A stretch of DNA of 64,000 nt, from NCBI GenBank assembly GCA_019638705.1, contig JAHBTI010000001.1, forward strand, positions 62,001-126,000. Direction: 5' to 3'. The stretch is from Bacteroidota bacterium (GTDB taxonomy: Bacteria > Bacteroidota > Bacteroidia > B-17B0 > Aurantibacillaceae). The notes beneath the pieces are model-generated. The model saw nothing but the letters and a program-made list of their open reading frames with translations, was not told where the DNA came from and made no database searches. The stretch's first letter is position 1. The number at the start of each line of letters is the position of its first letter. The translations under genes and the position numbers were made by a program. Shown here in pieces: positions 14,619 to 63,268 of this stretch.

Positions 14619-17600
14619 ATGTTTTTAATTTTTGATACCGAAACCACAGGGTTGCCCCGCGATTACAAAGCACCGCTTACCGATTTTGATAACTGGCCCC
14701 GCATGGTGCAAATTGCCTGGCAGTTGCACGACAAAACAGGAAAATTGCTTCATCACGACAGCATTATTATAAAACCCGAAGGATACACCATTCCGTATAA
14801 TGCCGCGCAAATTCATGGTATCAACACAGAGCGCGCCAATGCCGAAGGAAAAAATCTGAAAGAAGTGTTGCAGCAGTTTATTGAGATTGTAAACCAAACA
14901 ACTTATTTGTGCGGACACAACATTACGTTTGATAAAAACATTATCGGCGCTGAATTTTTGCGTTGCGGTTTGCCAAATGTGTTTGAAAACAAACAAACCA
15001 TTGATACCATAAACGAGCAAACAACTAATTTTTGTGCACTTCCCGGCGGCAAAGGCGGAAAATATAAATATCCGAACTTAACGGAATTATATTCAAAACT
15101 TTTCAATTCAAAATTTGAAGAAGCACACAACGCTGCCTTTGACGTACAAGCCACTTCGCGTGTGTTTTTTGAAATCATTAAACGGGGCATTACCAAAATA
15201 AGCGAACTTTCGTCCGAAGAAGCCGCAGCCATTAATTACGAAGATGTTGATTTATCGGAATTACTTGCGAATGAAAAGAAACTGAAAGAAGAAGCAAGTC
15301 GTAGGTCGCAAGAATTAAGTCGTAAGCCCGAAGATACAAGTTCAGTCTCCTCCCCTTCGGGGAGGTCGGGTGGGGCTTTCTCTCACCTCCACAACCACTC
15401 CCAATTCTCCGTTCTTCAATCTGTGAGCGACATTAACGACATGGTGAAGAAAGCCGCCGATTACAATATGCCCGCGCTTGCCTTGACTGACCACGAAAAT
15501 ATGTACGGTGCGTTTTTATTTTGGCAAGCGATTGAGAAGCAAAATAAATCCATTAAAGCACACAACGAAGCCATTGATAAAGGCGACCCTTCGGCTATTG
15601 CTCAGGGTTTACAAAGGAAAAACGAGTTGAAATGCATCATCGGTTGCGAATTGTATGTAACCAAAGACCACAAAGACAAAAGCAAGCAAGACAATGGTTT
15701 CAGCATTCCGTTTTTGGCGAAGAACAAAAAAGGCTACGAAAATTTATCCAAGTTAAGTTCCATTGGTTTGATTGACGGAAAATATTATGTGGCGCGCATT
15801 GACAAAGATTTGTTGCTGCAATACAAAAATGATTTAATTGTAACGACGGGTTCTTTGTACGGCGAAATTCCGCATTTGATTTTAAATGTGGGCGAAGCGC
15901 AAGCCGAAGAAACTTTTTTGTGGTACAAAGAACAATTCGGCGAAGATTTTTATGTGGAGTTAAACAGACATAATCTTCCCGAAGAAGACCATGTGAATAC
16001 GGTCTTGTTGAACTTTGCAAAAAAACACAACGTAAAATATTTTGCCGCCAACAGCAATTATTATTTGGATAAAAAATCTTCCGAGTCGCACGACATTTTA
16101 TTGTGTGTAAAAGACGGAGAAAAAAAATCTACGCCTGTTGGTCGTGGGCGCGGCTTCCGCTATGGTTTGCCAAACCACGAATTTTATTTTAAGTCGCCGC
16201 AGGAAATGGCAGAGTTGTTTAAAGATTTGCCCGAAGCCCTTGACTGCACGCAAGAAATCGTTTCAAAAATAGAAGCCTTTAAATTAGGTCGTGATATTTT
16301 GTTGCCGAAATTTGAAATTGCACAAGATTTTATTTCAGCGCACGAAAACGAAATTCAACAATCTCACCAACGCATTATTTCCATAAAAGAAAAAACGTGG
16401 AAAGAAAAAAATCTCTCTGACGAAGCCGTTGAAAATGCAAAAAAAGAAATGCGCGTAATTGCCGAACAATTTGTTTACATGAGCGATTTAACGTGGAAAG
16501 GCGCGCACAAACGTTATCCCGATATATCGCCCGAAACAAAAGAACGTATTCAATTTGAATTGGAAACAATTGAACGCATGGGTTATCCCGGTTATTTTTT
16601 AATTGTGGCTGATTTCATTGCCAAAGCGCGTGAAATGGGCGTTTCCGTTGGTCCGGGTCGCGGCTCTGCGGCGGGTTCGGCTATTGCGTATTGTTTGTGG
16701 ATTACCAACGTTGACCCGATAAAATTTGATTTACTCTTTGAACGGTTTTTAAATCCCGACCGTATTTCCATGCCCGATATTGATATTGATTTTGACGACG
16801 AAGGGCGCGGAAAAGTGATTGAGTATGTGATTAACAAATATGGCAGCAATCAGGTGGCGCAAATTATTACTTACGGCACTATGGGCGGAAAGTCTGCAAT
16901 CAAAGATGCGGCGCGGGCTTTAGACCTGCCTTTGGAAAATGCCAATCAACTCACCAAAGCATTTCCCGAAAGTCCCGAAGCGGAATTGAAAAAGATTTTA
17001 AAGCAGGGCGGCATTGACGAAAAATATTTAGAGAAAGTAAAAGACAAACGCGAAGTCGTTGAACAATCATATAATTTCAGAAAGCTCGCCGAAGCAAACA
17101 CACCCGAAGCCGAAGTATTAAAACAAGCCGCTGAATTAGAGGGCTGCGTGCGAAACACAGGCATTCACGCTTGCGGTGTCATTATCACGCCCGACGATTT
17201 GGTGAAATTTGTTCCCGTTACCAAAGCAAAAGACAACGATATGTTGGTAACGCAATTTGACAACTCTGTGGCGGAAAGCGCGGGTTTGCTCAAAATGGAT
17301 TTTCTTGGTTTGCGCACGCTCACTATCATTAAAGATGCTTTGCGTTTCATCAAAGAAAATCACAACAAAGAAATTGACATTGATGCTATTCCTTTAGACG
17401 ATACGCTCACTTACGAATTATTTCAGCGCGGAGAAACCAACGGCATTTTTCAATATGAAAGTGCCGGAATGCAAAAATCGTTGAAAGAATTAAAACCCGA
17501 TGCTTTCAATGATTTGATTGCGATGAATGCCTTGTATCGCCCGGGACCATTGGCTTACATTCCGAGTTACATAAAACGCAAACACGGCATAGAGCCTGTA

Positions 17601-21861: not shown

Positions 21862-23381
<1,520 letters not shown>

Positions 23382-40845: not shown

Positions 40846-40873
40846 AATCCCCCAAAGGGGGAAGTTGGAACGA
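40846..40873. repeat. Family A core palindrome behind ftsA
   Basis: AATCCCCCAAAGGGGGAAGT contains the CCCCC-AAA-GGGGG core of the leuS elements without the full outer arm. It may also act as a hairpin at the end of the ftsA transcript. Confidence 0.6.
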
Positions 40874-47967: not shown

Positions 47968-49092
47968 ATGAAAATTTTAAAATTCATTTTCATTTTTCTT
48001 TCCTTTTCAAAACTTGCTTTTTCGCAGTTGGATAATTCGGCTTTGTATTTTAATACAGAGATTGACACCACGCATGAAAAAGAATTTTTTGTAAAAATTC
48101 AAAACCTGAATTTTATGAAAGATAACGAGTACATGAATGTTATGGTTGATGGTTACACCCTGTTTGGTGTTCAGCTTAATCCGCAACTCGGGTATCAGTT
48201 GTCAAAAAATTTGAGTATTGAAGCAGGAATTTTTTTAGGCAAAGATTTCGGCAATAAAAAATTTACCGAAGTTGCGCCGACTTTTTCGTTGCGTTATTAC
48301 AAAAAAGATTTCAAACTTATTTTCGGCAACCTTGACGGAAGCCTTAATCACGGCTTGATTGAGCCTGTGTATAATTTTGAGCGCATCATGACCAACCGTT
48401 TGGAAAACGGTATGCAGTTTACGCTCAATAAAAAATATTTTGATTTTGATGTGTGGATTGACTGGCTGCACATGATTTATAAATTCAGCAACACACAGGA
48501 AAAATTAATGGCAGGCATTAATACAAATGTGTTGAAATTGGAAAATGACGACTGGCAGTTTAAAGTGCCGTTTCAGGCGGTGCTTGTTCACACGGGCGGA
48601 CAAATTGATACCGTGCCGGGCGGTATTTATACCAACGTTAATTATGCTGCCGGCATTGTGCTGAACAAAAAATTGCAACACAAATATATAAAAACTGTTT
48701 TTGTTGATGCGCGTTACACCTTGCGCTCAAACCTGTATGACGATACGCCTGTTATCATTCGCTCGTGGGGCGACGGATTTTTTGGAAACATTGGCATGAA
48801 AGGTGCGTACAAAACCGAAGTGTTGTTTTCGTACTGGCTCGGCGACTGGTATCACACCGAATATGGCGGCAACTTGTATTCAAGCCAATCATCTACCGTT
48901 AGGTACAGTTGGTACTGGAAAGAACGTTTTCGTGAATTGCTGATTATGCGTTTGACGAAAACATTTGAATTAACCAAAGGTGCAACTATGCTGTTGCGCG
49001 CAGAGCCGCATTACGATTTTCGTCATAAACAATTTGAATATTCGCTTGGCTTTTATATAAGCATTGACGAGCGTTTGTGGTTGAGGAAGTGA
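47968..49092 (+). CDS. Putative outer-membrane beta-barrel protein
   Basis: 374 residues from ATG 47968. The first 19 residues form a signal peptide (FKFIFIFLSFSKLAFSQ-like, cut after FSQ). The rest alternates polar and aromatic residues with repeated girdles (YHTEYGGNLYSSQSSTVRYS) and ends in FYISIDERLWLRK, all in keeping with an outer-membrane barrel. An upstream in-frame start at 47950 would put charged residues in front of the signal and overlap the previous stop, so 47968 is preferred. Function unknown. Confidence 0.72.
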   Translation: MKILKFIFIFLSFSKLAFSQLDNSALYFNTEIDTTHEKEFFVKIQNLNFMKDNEYMNVMVDGYTLFGVQLNPQLGYQLSKNLSIEAGIFLGKDFGNKKFTEVAPTFSLRYYKKDFKLIFGNLDGSLNHGLIEPVYNFERIMTNRLENGMQFTLNKKYFDFDVWIDWLHMIYKFSNTQEKLMAGINTNVLKLENDDWQFKVPFQAVLVHTGGQIDTVPGGIYTNVNYAAGIVLNKKLQHKYIKTVFVDARYTLRSNLYDDTPVIIRSWGDGFFGNIGMKGAYKTEVLFSYWLGDWYHTEYGGNLYSSQSSTVRYSWYWKERFRELLIMRLTKTFELTKGATMLLRAEPHYDFRHKQFEYSLGFYISIDERLWLRK

Positions 49093-49100
49093 AAACAACC

Positions 49101-49210
49101 GTGTCATTTCGAGTAGCCGGCGATAGGAGGCGTATCGAGAAATGACATATCAGAGAAATCAGTTCTCGATATGGTTTGCAAAGAGGCAGCAAACCTACTC
49201 GAACTGACAG
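49101..49210. repeat. Family G interspersed repeat (GTCATTTCGAG...TCGAGAAATGAC)
   Basis: GTCATTTCGAG (from 49103) and TCGAGAAATGAC (to 49145) are imperfect inverted copies. A second half has GTTCTCGAT, the hairpin GGTTTGC/GCAAACC and ACTCGAACTGAC. Repeats of this wording are scattered in many Bacteroidota genomes. It separates the converging barrel-protein and leuS genes. Confidence 0.75.
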
Positions 49211-49215
49211 TACAA

Positions 49216-52200
49216 CTAAACAACAAAATTCACAATCTTCTTTGGCACAATAATTACTTTCTTAGGCGTTTTACCCTCCAAATATTTTTGAACGTCTTCG
49301 CGGCTTGTTACTTCTTTTTCAATTTCCTGAACGCTGAGGTTAGCTGGCAATTCAATGTTTAAGCGCGTTTTACCGTTGAATGAAATCGGATAAGTGAAAC
49401 TGTCATCAACCAAATAACTTTCGTTTACTTCAGGGAATTTTTCAAAAGCAATGCTTTCTGTGTGTCCGAGTTTACTCCAAAGTTCTTCGGCAATGTGCGG
49501 CGCGTAAGGCGAAATCAAAACTAACAAAGGTTCTAAGATTGAACGCTTGTTGCATTTTTGTTCGGTTAATTCATTTACGCAAATCATAAAATTACTTACG
49601 GAAGTGTTGAACGAAAAACGCTCAATGTCTTCGGTAATTTTTTTAATTGTTTTGTGTAGAGATTTTAACTCGGCTTTTGAAGCCCCCTCCAAACCTCCCC
49701 CAACAGGGGAGGCTTTTTCGGCTTCAAAAACATTCTCCGCTAACTTCCATAATTTTTTCAAGAAGCCCGAAACACCTGTAATGCCGTTGGTATTCCATGG
49801 TTTGCTTTGCTCCAAAGGACCGAGAAACATTTCGTACAAACGCAAAGTGTCCGCGCCAAATTTTTCGCAAATGTCATCGGGTGTTACAACATTGTATTTT
49901 GATTTGGACATTTTTTCGGTTTCTGAACGAGTTAAGAACTTAAAATTGTCACCAGAAACCTCTTGTTTTTCTAAATCAAAAAATTTTCCTGCGTAATAAT
50001 AACCTTCCTTGAAAAAGAAAATACTATCGCTATTATTAAGTTTTCTTTCGGAAAAAGATTTAAAGTCCAATGAATTATTAGTAACAAAATTGATATCAAT
50101 ATTTGTTTCAACTATTAATGCGCCATCGTCAAATATGTTTTTGGCATCTGCACTAACGTATATTTCAACGTGTTTTTCTTCCGGAAAAAAAAGTTGTTTA
50201 CCATTTTTTAATGCCACATAAGATTCCCCTGTAATACCTTTCTCTTCATCTATTACGGCTACATTTAGACCAAAAAAATGGAAAATTTTTTCAGACATTC
50301 CTAATATCATTCCTTGATTAATCAACTTCTTTGCAGGCTCATCAATAGCAATGAAATTCATGTCGTGCAAAAATTTTGTCCAAAAGCGGAAGTAAAGCAA
50401 ATGCCCTGTGGCGTGCTCGCTGCCGCCAATGTAAAGGTCAATGTTTTGCCAATAATCTGCCAATTTTTTACTTACAAACTGCTCACTATTATTAGCGTCC
50501 ATGTAACGCAAAAAATACCAAGAGCTTCCCGCCCAACCCGGCATGGTGGTGGTTTCAAGAGGATAAGCCCCACCTAAATCCTCCCCAAGGGGGAGGACTT
50601 GGAGTTGTTTTTTAATTTCAGAAAGTACGTTTTCAATATCATGGAAAATGCGTTTGTTTTCAAAACGTATTACGGTGAAACCTTGTTTTTCTAATTCCAA
50701 AGTTCTCGCGGCATCATATTCTTTTTGTTGATTATGAATTTCGCCGTCCACTTCAATAATTAATTTTTTCTCCAAGCAAACAAAATCAGCAATGTTATAT
50801 CCGATGACTTGTTGTCTTCTGAATTTAAAATCCAACTGATTGTTTCTGATATGTTGCCACAAAGCGGCTTCGGCTTCCGTTTGATTGTTCCGCAATTCTT
50901 TTGAGCGCGACTTCATTTCAGTCCAACCCGAATTAGCTGCTGTTTGCCAACTATATGCCGTGCCGTCATGTTCTCCCCCTTTGGGGGAGTTAGAGGGGGC
51001 ATACTTCCAATCTTTAGCGCGTGCCAATGGCGGCTCGCCGTCTTCGGTTGGCAAAAATTTATCCACTTCGGGCAACACCAAAGGCAATTCACTTTCAGGT
51101 AAAGCATGAGGAATCCCATTTTTGTAATAAATCGGTATTGGTTCGCCCCAATAGCGTTGGCGACCAAACACGGCATCACGCAAACGGAAATTGGTTTTGC
51201 CTTTTCCCAGATTTCTTTTTTCAATTTCTTCAATGGATTTTCTTATTGCGGCTTTTACTTCCAAGCCATTTAAAAAATCGGAGTTGATGAGTTTTCCCTC
51301 TTTTTCGTCCCAAGAATTTTTTTCAAAATCATGTTCGCGTGTCGGCGTAATCACTTGCGTAATTGACAAACCAAAATGTTTTGCAAATTTATAATCGCGC
51401 TCATCATGCGCAGGAACAGCCATTACAGCACCTGTGCCATAACCCGCTAACACATAATCGCCAACCCACACAGGAATTGGTTTTCCTGAAAATGGGTGTT
51501 CCACATACGCGCCTGTAAACACGCCGCTCACTTTATTTACATCGGCTTGGCGTTCGCGCTCGCTGCGGTTTTTGGCTTTGTTTACATAATCTTCCACCGC
51601 AGATTTTTGTTCTGGTGTTGTAATTTTTTCTACCAATTCATGCTCGGGAGCAAGCGTTACAAAAGACACACCGAAGATTGTATCGGGGCGGGTGGTGAAT
51701 ACTTCGATAAAAGCCCCTCCCGACCTCCCCAAAGGGGAGGGGTTTGCGCTACTCGATTCTCCCCCTTTGGGGGAGTTAGAGGGGGCTACTCTGAACTTTA
51801 AACTCGTTCCCTCACTTTTTCCAATCCAATAACGCTGCGATTCTTTTAAACTTTCCGTCCAGTCTATTGTTTCCAAACCGTCTAACAAACGTTGCGCGTA
51901 AGCGGTAATACGCATACTCCATTGTTTCATTAATTTGCGCTCCACAGGATAACCGCCGCGCTCCGAAACGCCGTCTTTTACTTCATCGTTGGCTAAAACC
52001 GTTCCCAAAGCGGGACACCAGTTTACATAAGCTTCTCCGAGATACGCCAAACGGAAATTCATCAAAATATCGCTTTTGCGTTTTTCGTCAAATGCTTTCC
52101 ATTCATCGGCAGTAAAGCTCTGCAATTCCTGTTCTATGCTTCCTGTGAGCGTATCATGCGAAAGCCCTTTAAACCCTTCGGTTTCAAAAATTTTTATGAG

Positions 52201-52677
52201 TGTGTCAATATGTTCGGCTTTGTCGGTTTTTGGATTGTACCACGAATTAAAAATCTGAATGAAAATCCATTGAGTCCATTTGTAATAGTCAGGGTCAGAT
52301 GTGCGCACTTCTCTGTCCCAGTCAAACGAAAAACCGATTTTATCTAATTGCTCGCGGTAACGCGCAATGTTTTGTTCGGTAGTAAGGGCAGGGTGTTGCC
52401 CTGTTTGTATGGCGTATTGTTCGGCAGGCAAACCAAAACTATCGTAGCCCATGGGGTGCAACACATTAAAACCTTTGTGGCGTTTGTAGCGCGCCATGAT
52501 GTCGGAAGCAATGTAGCCCAAAGGGTGACCAACGTGCAAACCCGCGCCGCTTGGGTACGGAAACATATCCAATACATAATATTTCGGTTTATCGGAATTA
52601 TCTTTTGCTGCAAAGGTTTTTTCTTTTGCCCAACGCTCTTGCCACTTTTTTTCTATTTCTCTGAAATTGTACTCCAT
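49216..52677 (-). CDS. leuS: Leucyl-tRNA synthetase carrying in-frame DUF559 endonuclease insertion
   Basis: 1153 residues; Bacteroidota LeuRS are usually about 920-940. HIGH-like HVGH (48-51), editing-site TTRPDTIFGV (328-337) and AVPAHDERDY (420-429), GGSEHATGH (751-759) and EKMSKSKYN (921-929) are all present, so the synthetase should work. Extra sequence comes from three GC-rich palindromic insertions: residues about 298-322 (25 codons), 559-703 (145 codons) and 989-1000. The middle one encodes a complete DUF559 endonuclease-like domain (about 588-693) with ADF (Asp631), IIEVDG (Glu642, Asp644) and His648. The reading frame is open throughout. Confidence 0.95.
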   Translation of the reverse strand: MEYNFREIEKKWQERWAKEKTFAAKDNSDKPKYYVLDMFPYPSGAGLHVGHPLGYIASDIMARYKRHKGFNVLHPMGYDSFGLPAEQYAIQTGQHPALTTEQNIARYREQLDKIGFSFDWDREVRTSDPDYYKWTQWIFIQIFNSWYNPKTDKAEHIDTLIKIFETEGFKGLSHDTLTGSIEQELQSFTADEWKAFDEKRKSDILMNFRLAYLGEAYVNWCPALGTVLANDEVKDGVSERGGYPVERKLMKQWSMRITAYAQRLLDGLETIDWTESLKESQRYWIGKSEGTSLKFRVAPSNSPKGGESSSANPSPLGRSGGAFIEVFTTRPDTIFGVSFVTLAPEHELVEKITTPEQKSAVEDYVNKAKNRSERERQADVNKVSGVFTGAYVEHPFSGKPIPVWVGDYVLAGYGTGAVMAVPAHDERDYKFAKHFGLSITQVITPTREHDFEKNSWDEKEGKLINSDFLNGLEVKAAIRKSIEEIEKRNLGKGKTNFRLRDAVFGRQRYWGEPIPIYYKNGIPHALPESELPLVLPEVDKFLPTEDGEPPLARAKDWKYAPSNSPKGGEHDGTAYSWQTAANSGWTEMKSRSKELRNNQTEAEAALWQHIRNNQLDFKFRRQQVIGYNIADFVCLEKKLIIEVDGEIHNQQKEYDAARTLELEKQGFTVIRFENKRIFHDIENVLSEIKKQLQVLPLGEDLGGAYPLETTTMPGWAGSSWYFLRYMDANNSEQFVSKKLADYWQNIDLYIGGSEHATGHLLYFRFWTKFLHDMNFIAIDEPAKKLINQGMILGMSEKIFHFFGLNVAVIDEEKGITGESYVALKNGKQLFFPEEKHVEIYVSADAKNIFDDGALIVETNIDINFVTNNSLDFKSFSERKLNNSDSIFFFKEGYYYAGKFFDLEKQEVSGDNFKFLTRSETEKMSKSKYNVVTPDDICEKFGADTLRLYEMFLGPLEQSKPWNTNGITGVSGFLKKLWKLAENVFEAEKASPVGGGLEGASKAELKSLHKTIKKITEDIERFSFNTSVSNFMICVNELTEQKCNKRSILEPLLVLISPYAPHIAEELWSKLGHTESIAFEKFPEVNESYLVDDSFTYPISFNGKTRLNIELPANLSVQEIEKEVTSREDVQKYLEGKTPKKVIIVPKKIVNFVV
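49681..49717 (-). repeat. Family A half-element near the 3' part of leuS
   Basis: Plus strand AGCCCCCTCCAAACCTCCCC then CAACAGGGGAGGCTTTTT. Read on the coding strand as KASPVGGGLEGAS (residues about 988-1000), just before the anticodon-binding domain. Confidence 0.85.
50566..51000 (-). mobile_element. Family A element with DUF559 endonuclease cargo inside leuS
   Basis: The plus strand starts AGCCCCACCTAAATCCTCCC and ends GGGGGAGTTAGAGGGGGC. The ends are inverted: each has an outer GCCCC arm and an inner CCCC-AA(A)-GGGG palindrome. The length is 435 bp, exactly 145 codons, and the frame stays open. The cargo is a DUF559-type domain: KELRNNQTEAEAALWQHIRN, FKFRRQQVIGYNIADFVC, LIIEVDGEIHNQQKEYD, and FTVIRFENKRI. 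These are the conserved blocks of this Vsr-like/PD-(D/E)XK endonuclease family. Inference: an endonuclease-bearing palindromic element tolerated in frame in an essential gene. Confidence 0.85.
51712..51786 (-). mobile_element. Short (75-bp) family A element without cargo inside leuS
   Basis: Plus strand AGCCCCTCCCGACCTCCCCA ... and the right end GGGGGAGTTAGAGGGGGC is identical to that of the 435-bp element. The two ends again face each other; only about 14 bp lie between them. Length is 75 bp, exactly 25 codons, read as APSNSPKGGESSSANPSPLG then RSGGAF. APSNSPKGGE is repeated exactly at the N-terminal edge of the cargo-bearing element. Confidence 0.88.
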
Positions 52678-52712
52678 ACAAATTTTTAACGGAACGCAAA
52701 GATAGGATTTTT

Positions 52713-52757
52713 TGACACAGAGGCACGAGGGCGCGGATGCACGGAGTTTTTGGGTTG
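52713..52757. repeat. Repeat family D, copy upstream of the PH-like membrane protein
   Basis: GACACAGAGGCACGAGGGCG then GATGCACGGAG. It creates an apparent but unlikely N-terminal extension of the following reading frame. Confidence 0.7.
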
Positions 52758-52786
52758 AAATTTGTATTTTGGCAAAGAAAAAAATT

Positions 52787-53296
52787 ATGGAAAAATTATT
52801 TTCGGAACAACAACGTTTTCGTCAGGTGTGGTTATGGATTTTACTGATTGCAATTAACACATTATTTATTTACGGATTAGTCAGTCAAGTTTTCTTAGGA
52901 CAAACATTTGGCAATAAGCCAATGTCAAACGGCGGATTAATATTTGCAACAATTTTCGTTGTGTTACTTACCTTGTTATTTGTGTTTATGCGCCTTGACA
53001 CGGAAATAAAACAAGACGGCATTTATTACCGCTTCTATCCTTTTCAAAGAATGAAAAAAATTTCATGGGAAAGAATTTCAAAAGCCTGTGTAAGAAATTA
53101 CAGCCCTTTGGGAGAATTTGGCGGTTGGGGATTTCGCATAAATTTGTTTGGAAAAGGAATCGCTTACAATGTTTCAGGTAACGAGGGTTTGCAGCTTGTT
53201 TATGATAATAACAGAAAACTTTTGCTTGGCACTCAAAAGCCCGGTGAAATAAAAATGGCGTTGCAACAGTTGGGAAAATTGACAAACAGCGATTAG
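52787..53296 (+). CDS. Two-helix membrane protein with PH-like domain
   Basis: 169 residues from ATG 52787. Two hydrophobic helices (about 17-38 and 55-72, WLWILLIAINTLFIYGLVSQ and the FVVLLTLLFVF region) are followed by a beta-rich cytosolic-type domain with DTEIKQDGIYYRFYPFQRMK and GGWGFRINLFGKGIAYNVSG, like the small bacterial PH-fold membrane proteins. The reading frame extends upstream to 52712, but that part is repeat-derived, so the internal ATG is chosen. Function unknown. Confidence 0.68.
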   Translation: MEKLFSEQQRFRQVWLWILLIAINTLFIYGLVSQVFLGQTFGNKPMSNGGLIFATIFVVLLTLLFVFMRLDTEIKQDGIYYRFYPFQRMKKISWERISKACVRNYSPLGEFGGWGFRINLFGKGIAYNVSGNEGLQLVYDNNRKLLLGTQKPGEIKMALQQLGKLTNSD

Positions 53297-61735: not shown

Positions 61736-63268
61736 TTACGCCTCTTTCGCACTATTCAACGCTTCAGGCTTCATTTGCGGGAAAAACAACACTTCCTGAA
61801 TGCTTACGTTGTTGGTAAGCAACATGGTTAATCTGTCCATACCAATGCCGATGCCTGCTGTGGGCGGCATACCGTATTCCAAAGCGCGAAGAAAATCGTG
61901 GTCAATAAACATGGCTTCATCATCGCCACGCTCCTGCAATTTCACTTGTTCTTCAAAACGTTCGCGTTGGTCAAGCGGGTCGTTTAATTCGCTGTAAGCA
62001 TTGGCAATTTCTTTACCGTTAATCATCAATTCAAAACGTTCTACCAAATCTGCATTGTTGCGGTGCTTTTTGGTAAGCGGGCTCATTTCCACAGGATAAT
62101 CGGTAATAAACGTGGGTTGAATGTAAAGCCCTTCGCATTTGGCACTAAAAATTTCGTCAATCAGTTTTCCTTTACCCATGCTCGCTTCCGCGTGAATGTT
62201 GAGTTGTTTACACACATCGCGCAACTGCGCTTCGTCCATATTGCTGATGTCAATACCTGTGTGTTCTTTAATGGCTTGGTATATGGTTACACGCTTAAAC
62301 GGTGCTTTAAAATCAATGGTTTTGTCGCCGACTGTAACTTCGGTTGTGCTGTACAAATCGGTTACAACTTTTTCTAACATACGCTCGGTAAAATTCATCA
62401 TCCAGTTGTAATCTTTGTACGCCACATAAAATTCCAACATGGTAAATTCAGGATTGTGCGTTCTGTCCATACCCTCGTTGCGGAAGTCTTTGGCAAACTC
62501 ATACACGCCGTCAAAACCGCCAACGATGAGGCGTTTTAAATACAATTCGTTGGCAATGCGCAAATACAAAGGCATATTGAGCGCGTTGTGATGTGTGATA
62601 AACGGTCGCGCCGTAGCACCGCCCGGAATGCTTTGCAAAATGGGCGTTTCCACTTCCAGCAAACCATTATCATTTAATATTTCGCGAATGGAATTAAAAA
62701 TTCGTGTGCGTTTGCGGAAGGTGTCGCGCACATGAGGGTTTATAATCAAATCCACATAACGCTGGCGGAAACGAAATTCAGGGTCGCTTACTTCGTCGTA
62801 AGAATTTCCATCCTCATCGGTTTTCACAATCGGCAAAGGTTTCAGAGCCTTGCTCAATAATTTAAAATTGGTAACGTGAATGGAAATTTCGCCTGTTTTG
62901 GTGGTAAATACAAAACCCTGCACACCGATAATATCGCCGATGTCAATCAGTTTTTTCCAAACCACATCGTACAAACTTTTGTCTTCGTTGGGTGCAATAT
63001 CGTCTTTGCGCACATAAATTTGAATACGCGACGTTGCATCTTGTATCACGGCAAAAGCCGCTTTGCCCATATCGCGAATGCTCATGACGCGCCCCGCAAG
63101 CGAAATGTTCTTGTAATTAATTTTATCGCGCTCGTAATTTTCCTTTATATCTTCGGCACTGGCGTTTACTTTAAATTCTTCCGCAGGATAGGCGTTAATA
63201 CCGAGTTTGTTTAACTCTTCTAATTTTTGTCGTCTTAAAACTTCTTGTTCGCTTAATTGAATGGACAT
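61736..63268 (-). CDS. lysS: Lysyl-tRNA synthetase, class II
   Basis: 510 residues from ATG 63268; the frame extends to 63319 but the first 17 residues are unlike LysS, whose start usually reads LSEQE. An OB-fold anticodon domain (about 50-150) is followed by class II motif 1, motif 2 (FRNEGMDRTHNPEFTMLEFY) and motif 3 (GIGIGMDRLTMLLT). Complete and normal. A short 18-bp duplicate of its 3' end (GCTTCAGGCTTCATTTGC, at 61680 and 61761) lies just downstream of the stop. Confidence 0.95.
   Translation of the reverse strand: MSIQLSEQEVLRRQKLEELNKLGINAYPAEEFKVNASAEDIKENYERDKINYKNISLAGRVMSIRDMGKAAFAVIQDATSRIQIYVRKDDIAPNEDKSLYDVVWKKLIDIGDIIGVQGFVFTTKTGEISIHVTNFKLLSKALKPLPIVKTDEDGNSYDEVSDPEFRFRQRYVDLIINPHVRDTFRKRTRIFNSIREILNDNGLLEVETPILQSIPGGATARPFITHHNALNMPLYLRIANELYLKRLIVGGFDGVYEFAKDFRNEGMDRTHNPEFTMLEFYVAYKDYNWMMNFTERMLEKVVTDLYSTTEVTVGDKTIDFKAPFKRVTIYQAIKEHTGIDISNMDEAQLRDVCKQLNIHAEASMGKGKLIDEIFSAKCEGLYIQPTFITDYPVEMSPLTKKHRNNADLVERFELMINGKEIANAYSELNDPLDQRERFEEQVKLQERGDDEAMFIDHDFLRALEYGMPPTAGIGIGMDRLTMLLTNNVSIQEVLFFPQMKPEALNSAKEA

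Follow-up and report, generated by a model that had tools for sequence, protein, structure and literature searches.

A DUF559 nuclease element with inverted hairpin ends, carried in frame inside leucyl-tRNA synthetase and other genes of Bacteroidota

Mobile DNA in essential genes survives mainly by RNA or protein splicing. Inteins lie in frame in conserved housekeeping genes, carry a homing-type nuclease, are patchily distributed and recur at the same sites. Here we describe an insert of 435 nucleotides (nt) in leuS, the leucyl-tRNA synthetase gene of a Bacteroidota bacterium (family Aurantibacillaceae; GenBank assembly GCA_019638705.1), which encodes a DUF559 nuclease domain between inverted GC-rich hairpins and lies in positions 62,001 to 126,000 of contig JAHBTI010000001.1, a stretch of 64,000 nt that constitutes the window of this study. 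It has in common with inteins the in-frame insertion in housekeeping genes, the homing-type nuclease, the patchiness and the recurrent sites, and it differs from them in having no detected splicing domain, in its palindromic ends, in the variable leuS stretches that it occupies and in its many sites in one host family. We consider it probable that the insert is a mobile element, coding in frame over its whole length, in which inverted hairpin ends surround a DUF559 domain predicted to cut DNA, and which spreads in a homing-like manner with the host enzyme still working.

Other described systems, each considered here from the available part of its source, share portions of this arrangement. Rickettsia palindromic elements (RPEs) are palindromic repeats of about 150 bp, with a conserved peptide, found in frame in unrelated protein genes (PMC10969869); in-frame palindromes are common to both, but a nuclease goes unmentioned in the part available, and here a nuclease-bearing element exists beside nuclease-free halves. 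I-Bth0305I, among the group I intron homing enzymes, is a multi-domain protein with long DNA-binding regions (PMC3943268). The element is akin to it in fold and sequence of the catalytic domain, and differs in spanning only about 105 residues, in having no intron signature and in being fused to a host protein. In actinophage methylases, a likely homing endonuclease of 139 amino acids (aa) is inserted, separately from the intein, at a conserved position (PMC9957025), likewise a non-intein within a host protein, but in one phage gene family and with palindromic ends unmentioned in the part available. The WHO elements of yeasts are intein-like homing elements that need no protein splicing, although they replace the 3′ end of FBA1 instead of sitting inside it as a translated domain (PMC7282813). 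Finally, REP/RAYT systems comprise dispersed short palindromes, often close together in opposite orientation and some of them intragenic, that are tied to one enzyme gene (PMC3733652); that enzyme is a tyrosine transposase, whereas here it is a Vsr-type nuclease in the host reading frame. No description of DUF559 elements inside housekeeping genes was recognised in the open-access literature searched and, since the nearest precedents, as far as seen here, do not combine palindromic ends with a permanently in-frame nuclease, we rate the kind as new and its parts as known.

The host gene and its insertions are arranged as follows.

49216..52677, minus strand: leuS, leucyl-tRNA synthetase, the host gene; a single uninterrupted frame of 1153 aa (TIGR00396, E 8e-279).
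50566..51000, minus strand: the element at leuS site B; 435 nt, codons 560-704, open throughout in the leuS frame.
50599..50916, minus strand: DUF559 (Vsr/EDxHD-type) nuclease domain; leuS residues about 588-693 (PF04480, E 1.8e-37, above the cut-off).
50973..51000, minus strand: 5′ end of the element (coding strand); GCCCCCTCTAA plus hairpin CTCCCCCAAAGGGGGAG.
50566..50597, minus strand: 3′ end of the element (coding strand); hairpin TCCTCCCCCTTGGGGAGGA plus TTTAGGTGGGGCT.
51712..51786, minus strand: leuS site A; an inverted pair of half-palindromes about 18 nt apart, without DUF559; 25 in-frame codons (APSNSPKGGESSSANPSPLGRSGGA).
49681..49712, minus strand: leuS site C; a single in-frame half-palindrome, peptide ASPVGGGLEGA.

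The original prediction, made from the letters alone, spoke of exactly 145 codons inside leuS, beginning AGCCCC and ending GGGGGC with matching inverted palindromes, and encoding a whole DUF559 domain on the strand and in the frame of the host. All of this is borne out: the plus-strand letters of 50566-51000 start and finish as described, a GC-rich hairpin lies in each end (50579-50597 and 50973-50989), and the translated frame carries ADF, IIEVDG and His648. On the coding strand the order is GCCCCCTCTAA, hairpin CTCCCCCAAAGGGGGAG, DUF559 domain, hairpin TCCTCCCCCTTGGGGAGGA and TTTAGGTGGGGCT, both ends being inverted forms of one asymmetric plan with the hairpin inside and a GGGGCT arm outside. 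The 5′-end unit, with T instead of A as its last base, is found three more times in the hairpin set of the genome. The limits of the element were set by analogy with empty relatives and with a pair of twin elements.

These twins, in a Flavobacterium bin (locus L100), are two 450-nt elements of 150 codons each, open in one frame only, within a single metH-like gene. Between AGCCCC and GGGGCT they are 85.3% identical, and their 100-nt flanks, at 58% and 56%, are near the background of random locus pairs (median 54%, 95th percentile 60%); therefore, the copied unit was the whole open element from end to end. The hairpin ends belong to the element. Furthermore, the 200 nt before each DUF559 domain were compared with the following 200 nt in reverse complement, in 113 domains from 110 loci; L109, L114 and L125 were dropped as too close to contig ends, and 86 embedded and 24 standalone copies were scored. 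Embedded copies reached a median end-pairing score of 19 with their own ends, against 12 with those of other copies and 11 at shifted positions, and 42 of the 86 exceeded the 99th percentile of the control; for standalone copies the values were 24.5, 11 and 11, with 17 of 24 above the threshold. A strict GC hairpin flanks both sides of 31/86 embedded and 7/24 standalone copies (shifted controls 0/232 and 0/71), and one side only of 25/86 and 8/24 (controls 11/232 and 6/71). Thus, by the twins and by the end-pairing statistics, inverted ends bound the copied unit, as in terminal-inverted-repeat transposable elements; no known transposase was found inside the leuS insert, where the translated frame and the Pfam scan yield DUF559 only.

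Purifying selection on DUF559 is strong (median dN/dS 0.10). Residues E16, D44, E55, D57 and H61 (E603, D631, E642, D644 and H648 of the leuS-borne domain), which we take to be catalytic, are kept in 342-343 of 343 copies, a set in which a few copies are protein-terminal or fragmentary and whose conservation is partly biased because the contig scan used the E-x-D-G..H motif as search pattern; in the protein-search subset the same five are kept in 260-261 of 261. Pfam finds in the inserts of seven carrier proteins DUF559 plus weak matches to MTES_1575, Vsr and DUF2726 only. The nearest characterised relatives, by fold and by sequence, are the homing endonuclease I-Bth0305I and Vsr, a kinship by which the DUF559 insert belongs to the EDxHD/Vsr-type nuclease superfamily.

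Within the genus that includes the genome of the window (G000; 48 contigs, listed completeness 99.94%), 36 leuS rows were available, none of them from G007, G008, G027 or G030; the one contributed by G035 is a remote leuS whose branch is very long. DUF559 occupies site B in three rows (G000, G034, G011), site A in four (G015, G026, G017, G018) and neither site in 29, which mostly have a short loop such as WKY-KGE-YDYE, some with remnants or other palindromes. Because 33 of the 36 rows are without DUF559 at site B, the insert is, on this comparison, not native to leuS, and the old native domain that would have undone the original prediction is not what the relatives contain. On the leuS backbone tree three changes are required for site B and four for site A. 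Moreover, G034 and G011 are more alike in the insert (95% in aa, 90% in nt) than in its flanks (86% and 76% in aa, 81% in nt), and at site B the insert exceeds the host by at least 10 points in 46 of 153 protein pairs when flanks of 200 aa are used, the excess first seen being 96% versus 72%. Such pairs elsewhere number 18/1081 at metH_1, 3/66 at metH_2 and 3/300 at metG. These comparisons moderately support recent horizontal spread at site B. In turn, G025, a sister of the site-B carriers, has an apparent decayed 3′ end at that site; sister genomes are not simply empty, and the pattern may reflect losses in addition to gains.

In a tree of the domain itself (370 domains, 107 columns, FastTree), 73 changes are needed among 11 host-site groups, for a minimum of 10 and a shuffled mean of 222. 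This tree is poorly resolved, with a warning of joined long branches, and its starred branches force only four changes for leuS_A, four for metH_1, three for metH_2, three for standalone genes and one each for leuS_B and metG.

Some individual leuS loci may be recorded here. One gene (L008, from G076) holds DUF559 elements at both site A and site B, with different end sequences. A contig binned as Candidatus Paceibacterota (L090) has DUF559 at site A with GC-rich inverted flanks, which would mean either spread outside Bacteroidota or a binning error. Two leuS proteins (P0007 and P0013) are 100% identical upstream of site B and only 78% downstream, a sign of recombination with a breakpoint close to the insert.

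Palindrome-bounded DUF559 domains inside other genes, for which the original prediction had proposed a search, were found many times over. By Pfam columns and sequences the hosts include leuS, metH, metG, ileS, valS, recG, uvrA, hutU, cinA, an adenine-deaminase-like protein and restriction enzymes; recJ- and acetyl-CoA-synthetase-like (acs) frames, named from motifs, are presumably further hosts in the genome loci. When the insert region of long carriers served as query, two protein searches gave 531 and 3064 proteins at E 1e-10, and the analyses built on them rest on 120 listed of the 531 and 120 listed of the 3064. By agreement of both flanks, 233 proteins, the window's own included, fall into 41 insertion-site clusters, 17 of them with at least two copies, some singletons being fragments of sites already counted; DUF559 is present once in 189 of these proteins, twice in 43 and three times in one. 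DUF559 is matched in 58 of the 87 genomes of the wider family, and a hand count places 29 of the 102 matches listed, from 27 genomes, in open frames of at least 810 codons. In the phylum sample an embedded-type relative occurs in 134 of 296 genomes, and 41 among the matches listed (hand count; 36 genomes, several single-contig) are in open frames of at least 350 codons, frame length being by itself no proof of an internal position. From the genome-contig scan, the best 80 of 579 confirmed stretches were taken as loci. Two of the loci studied here (L004 and L055) agree in sequence context and evidently represent a single locus. Among the named carriers are Formosa agariphila KMM 3901, Flavobacterium columnare, Maribacter algicola and Flavivirga eckloniae. 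DUF559 matches at E 1e-8 were also found in phages (3 of 50,697 records) and plasmids (36 of 72,556).

This distribution bears on the idea that the locus is a mis-assembly or a pseudogene copy of leuS, which a source assembly in 48 contigs and the many further examples from metagenome bins might recommend. Such an error is refuted in substance, and we give it almost no weight: among the rows of G000 the TIGR00396 cut-off is passed only by pieces of this leuS locus (unlisted rows being weaker), so the nearly complete genome has it as its sole leuS above the cut-off, with 1153 codons open, and the same arrangement, as judged by open-frame length, appears in seven single-contig genomes (G115, G189, G322, G284, G218, G192, G129) as well as in cultured, named strains, Formosa agariphila KMM 3901 among them.

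The hairpins also exist without the nuclease. In the window, GC-rich hairpins with arms of at least 6 number 14, versus 1-7 in five Markov copies, and 5 of the 14 are within leuS. Across G000 the CTCCCC-N1-7-GGGGAG hairpin has 24 copies, versus none for the pattern read backwards; 22 of them share the asymmetric unit of 27-32 nt with a GGGGC terminus, and three sequences are exactly repeated. By our count 11 of the 24 lie in frame within genes (leuS 5, ileS 2, and one each in a DNA polymerase III epsilon/alpha-like gene, tsaD, an ABC ATPase and an RHS-like frame), an in-frame placement in unrelated protein genes that they share with RPEs. The polymerase case is in the window.

15349..15377, plus strand: a single in-frame half-palindrome in the DNA polymerase III epsilon/alpha-like gene, peptide SSPSGRSGGA.

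Site A of leuS in G000 is a position occupied by DUF559 in other species; indeed, its pair of halves and both ileS halves sit, by eye, where other species hold the full element (P0115, P0140, L006 and others). Half-palindromes similar to that of site C occur in G034 and G011. Over the 87 genomes, at least two hairpins are present in 21 of 58 genomes with DUF559 versus 0 of 29 without it (Fisher p 9e-5), and at least one in 33 of 58 versus 2 of 29, with one copy each (Fisher p 5e-6); within the genus alone, hairpins occur in 10/24 genomes with and 1/16 without DUF559 (p 0.027). These p values are optimistic, given the relatedness of the genomes and the inclusion of the element ends themselves in the hairpin counts.

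Such halves raise the alternative that mobility resides in the palindromes, as a Bacteroidota counterpart of the Rickettsia palindromic elements moved by another enzyme, and that DUF559 is carried between two of them as a passenger, in the manner of a composite element with its cargo. The copy numbers of the hairpins in G000 (24, with one DUF559), G064 (23), G052 (19) and others are far above two per DUF559, and a different palindrome family occupies, without DUF559, leuS site B in G005, G015 and G028 and site C in G033, G016 and G012. Nevertheless, we regard this as a rather unlikely account, since hairpins are nearly missing where DUF559 is missing, matching ends also bound standalone DUF559 genes (17/24), and nearly every copy conserves the nuclease active site, for which a passenger would have no use.

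Other palindromes were noticed as well. The second, unlike in-frame family, with core GGAGGAGGTGGCGCGAAAGCGACGGAGGAGG or GGAGGGGGTGTCGC..GCGACGGGGGAGG, was seen at the same leuS loops of other genus members at loci L151, L158 and L155 (site C) and L160, L150 and L017 (site B). Three loci of the window's genome (L047, L052, L053) are inverted half pairs without DUF559, intergenic or at a gene end, as miniature elements. At L058 and L076 the inverted-repeat match of the flanks extends for some 90 nt and contains several successive palindromes, which suggests that one element end was inserted into another. Within the window, GC-rich hairpins at 22311-22328 and 40848-40862 have no outer GGGGCT arm and are perhaps decayed halves or unrelated terminators, and an intergenic inverted repeat downstream of leuS (49102-49149, on TGTCATTTCGAG...CGAGAAATGACA) is of a family unlike the GC-rich palindromes.

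With its conserved housekeeping genes, recurrent sites and homing-type nuclease, the element occupies the niche of inteins and group I introns, and a hidden splicing element, removed from the protein or the mRNA by some further mechanism, has to be considered. No splicing-domain family, such as the Hint domain of inteins, is among the Pfam hits of the seven carrier proteins (for P0093, 25 of 26 hits), and no catalytic intron RNA was detected by Rfam at E up to 0.1 in window positions 49000-53000, where the leuS frame is uninterrupted. The insert, of about 145-150 codons, is filled by the nuclease and its ends, and the leuS insertions lie in a variable stretch, outside the conserved motifs. We thus hold such splicing to be very improbable. 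Of the intein-like niche without an intein, as the original prediction put it, the in-frame position in an essential gene and the lack of intein or intron signatures in Pfam and Rfam stand as found; that the protein remains unspliced is what we infer. On solved leucyl-tRNA synthetases, site A falls in a short gap ahead of VFTTRPDT and site B in an unaligned stretch between residues 462 and 487 of the Thermus thermophilus enzyme (1h3n), positions compatible with loops, which is no proof of them. An AlphaFold model of the whole leuS product (27 rows) was set aside (mean pLDDT 52.5, pTM 0.31).

Altogether, the element has an uninterrupted frame over its full length and defined ends, close relatives differ in carrying it or not, and it inhabits many host genes and has been duplicated once within a gene; it retains its active site, and the hairpin halves are associated with DUF559. 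Its mobility is demonstrated by comparison of sequences; that it cuts, homes and survives as a fused protein is inferred. This supports the earlier reading of an endonuclease-bearing element able to sit in an essential gene without stopping it.

Several observations weigh in the other direction. Among embedded copies, 30/86 have no strict hairpin on either side and 44/86 are below the end-pairing threshold. By eye, no clear target-site duplication emerges from filled versus empty site-B DNA, the loops being too variable, and since empty-site loops differ from filled ones, insertion may be imprecise. The excess at site B is smaller with whole-gene flanks (insert 95%, upstream 85%, downstream 73%), having first been overestimated because the 200-aa flanks take in a fast-evolving region. 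The genomes and copies are related, as L004 and L055 illustrate, and counts and p values are optimistic for that reason. The looping-out of the domain is surmised from sequence, the whole-leuS model being poor. At site A, over 1431 protein pairs, the similarity of the insert never surpassed that of its host by 10 points or more; horizontal spread has no support there, and the site looks inherited or anciently spread.

This last result would also suit a domesticated domain, that is, old inserts kept because the host uses the nuclease, perhaps against phages or for mismatch repair, with leuS, metH and the others as convenient carriers. The strong purifying selection and the Vsr-like fold point the same way, and a Caulobacter DUF559 protein has been proposed to act in mismatch repair, in the available part of that report (PMC12907096). 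We nonetheless judge domestication unlikely in view of the patchiness within one genus, the presence of as many as three inserts per protein, the copying to a second site within one gene and the unrelatedness of the hosts.

For the mobile, translated element that we favour, a mechanism may be proposed. The DUF559 product, as a relative of I-Bth0305I, would nick or cut the vacant allele, and repair against the occupied allele would copy the element over, the flanks of the host gene guiding entry at the same site. On rare occasions, pairing of the GC-rich palindromic ends with half-palindromes already scattered in genes may allow entry at a new site, and probably only insertions that are in frame and in surface loops would survive. 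The host enzyme would keep working with the element carried as an extra loop, hence its persistence, and after loss of the nuclease, half-palindromes, in pairs or singly, would be left as in-frame scars. In this scheme splicing is neither required nor indicated.

We therefore lean, if only slightly, towards the broader proposition of a transposable element that exists as a protein domain: free of stops even through its hairpin ends, copying itself by a Vsr-type homing nuclease into loops of essential proteins, permanently translated, and shedding in-frame palindromic scars that would reshape housekeeping enzymes across Bacteroidota. Such an element seems to survive in an essential gene by remaining in the protein. 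If this is true, it would constitute a testable new mode of selfish DNA and supply core enzymes with new loops and domains. Furthermore, it would provide a candidate mobiliser for in-frame coding palindromes, which have been puzzling since the Rickettsia palindromic elements, and would explain many of the long proteins with DUF559 that databases contain by the thousands.
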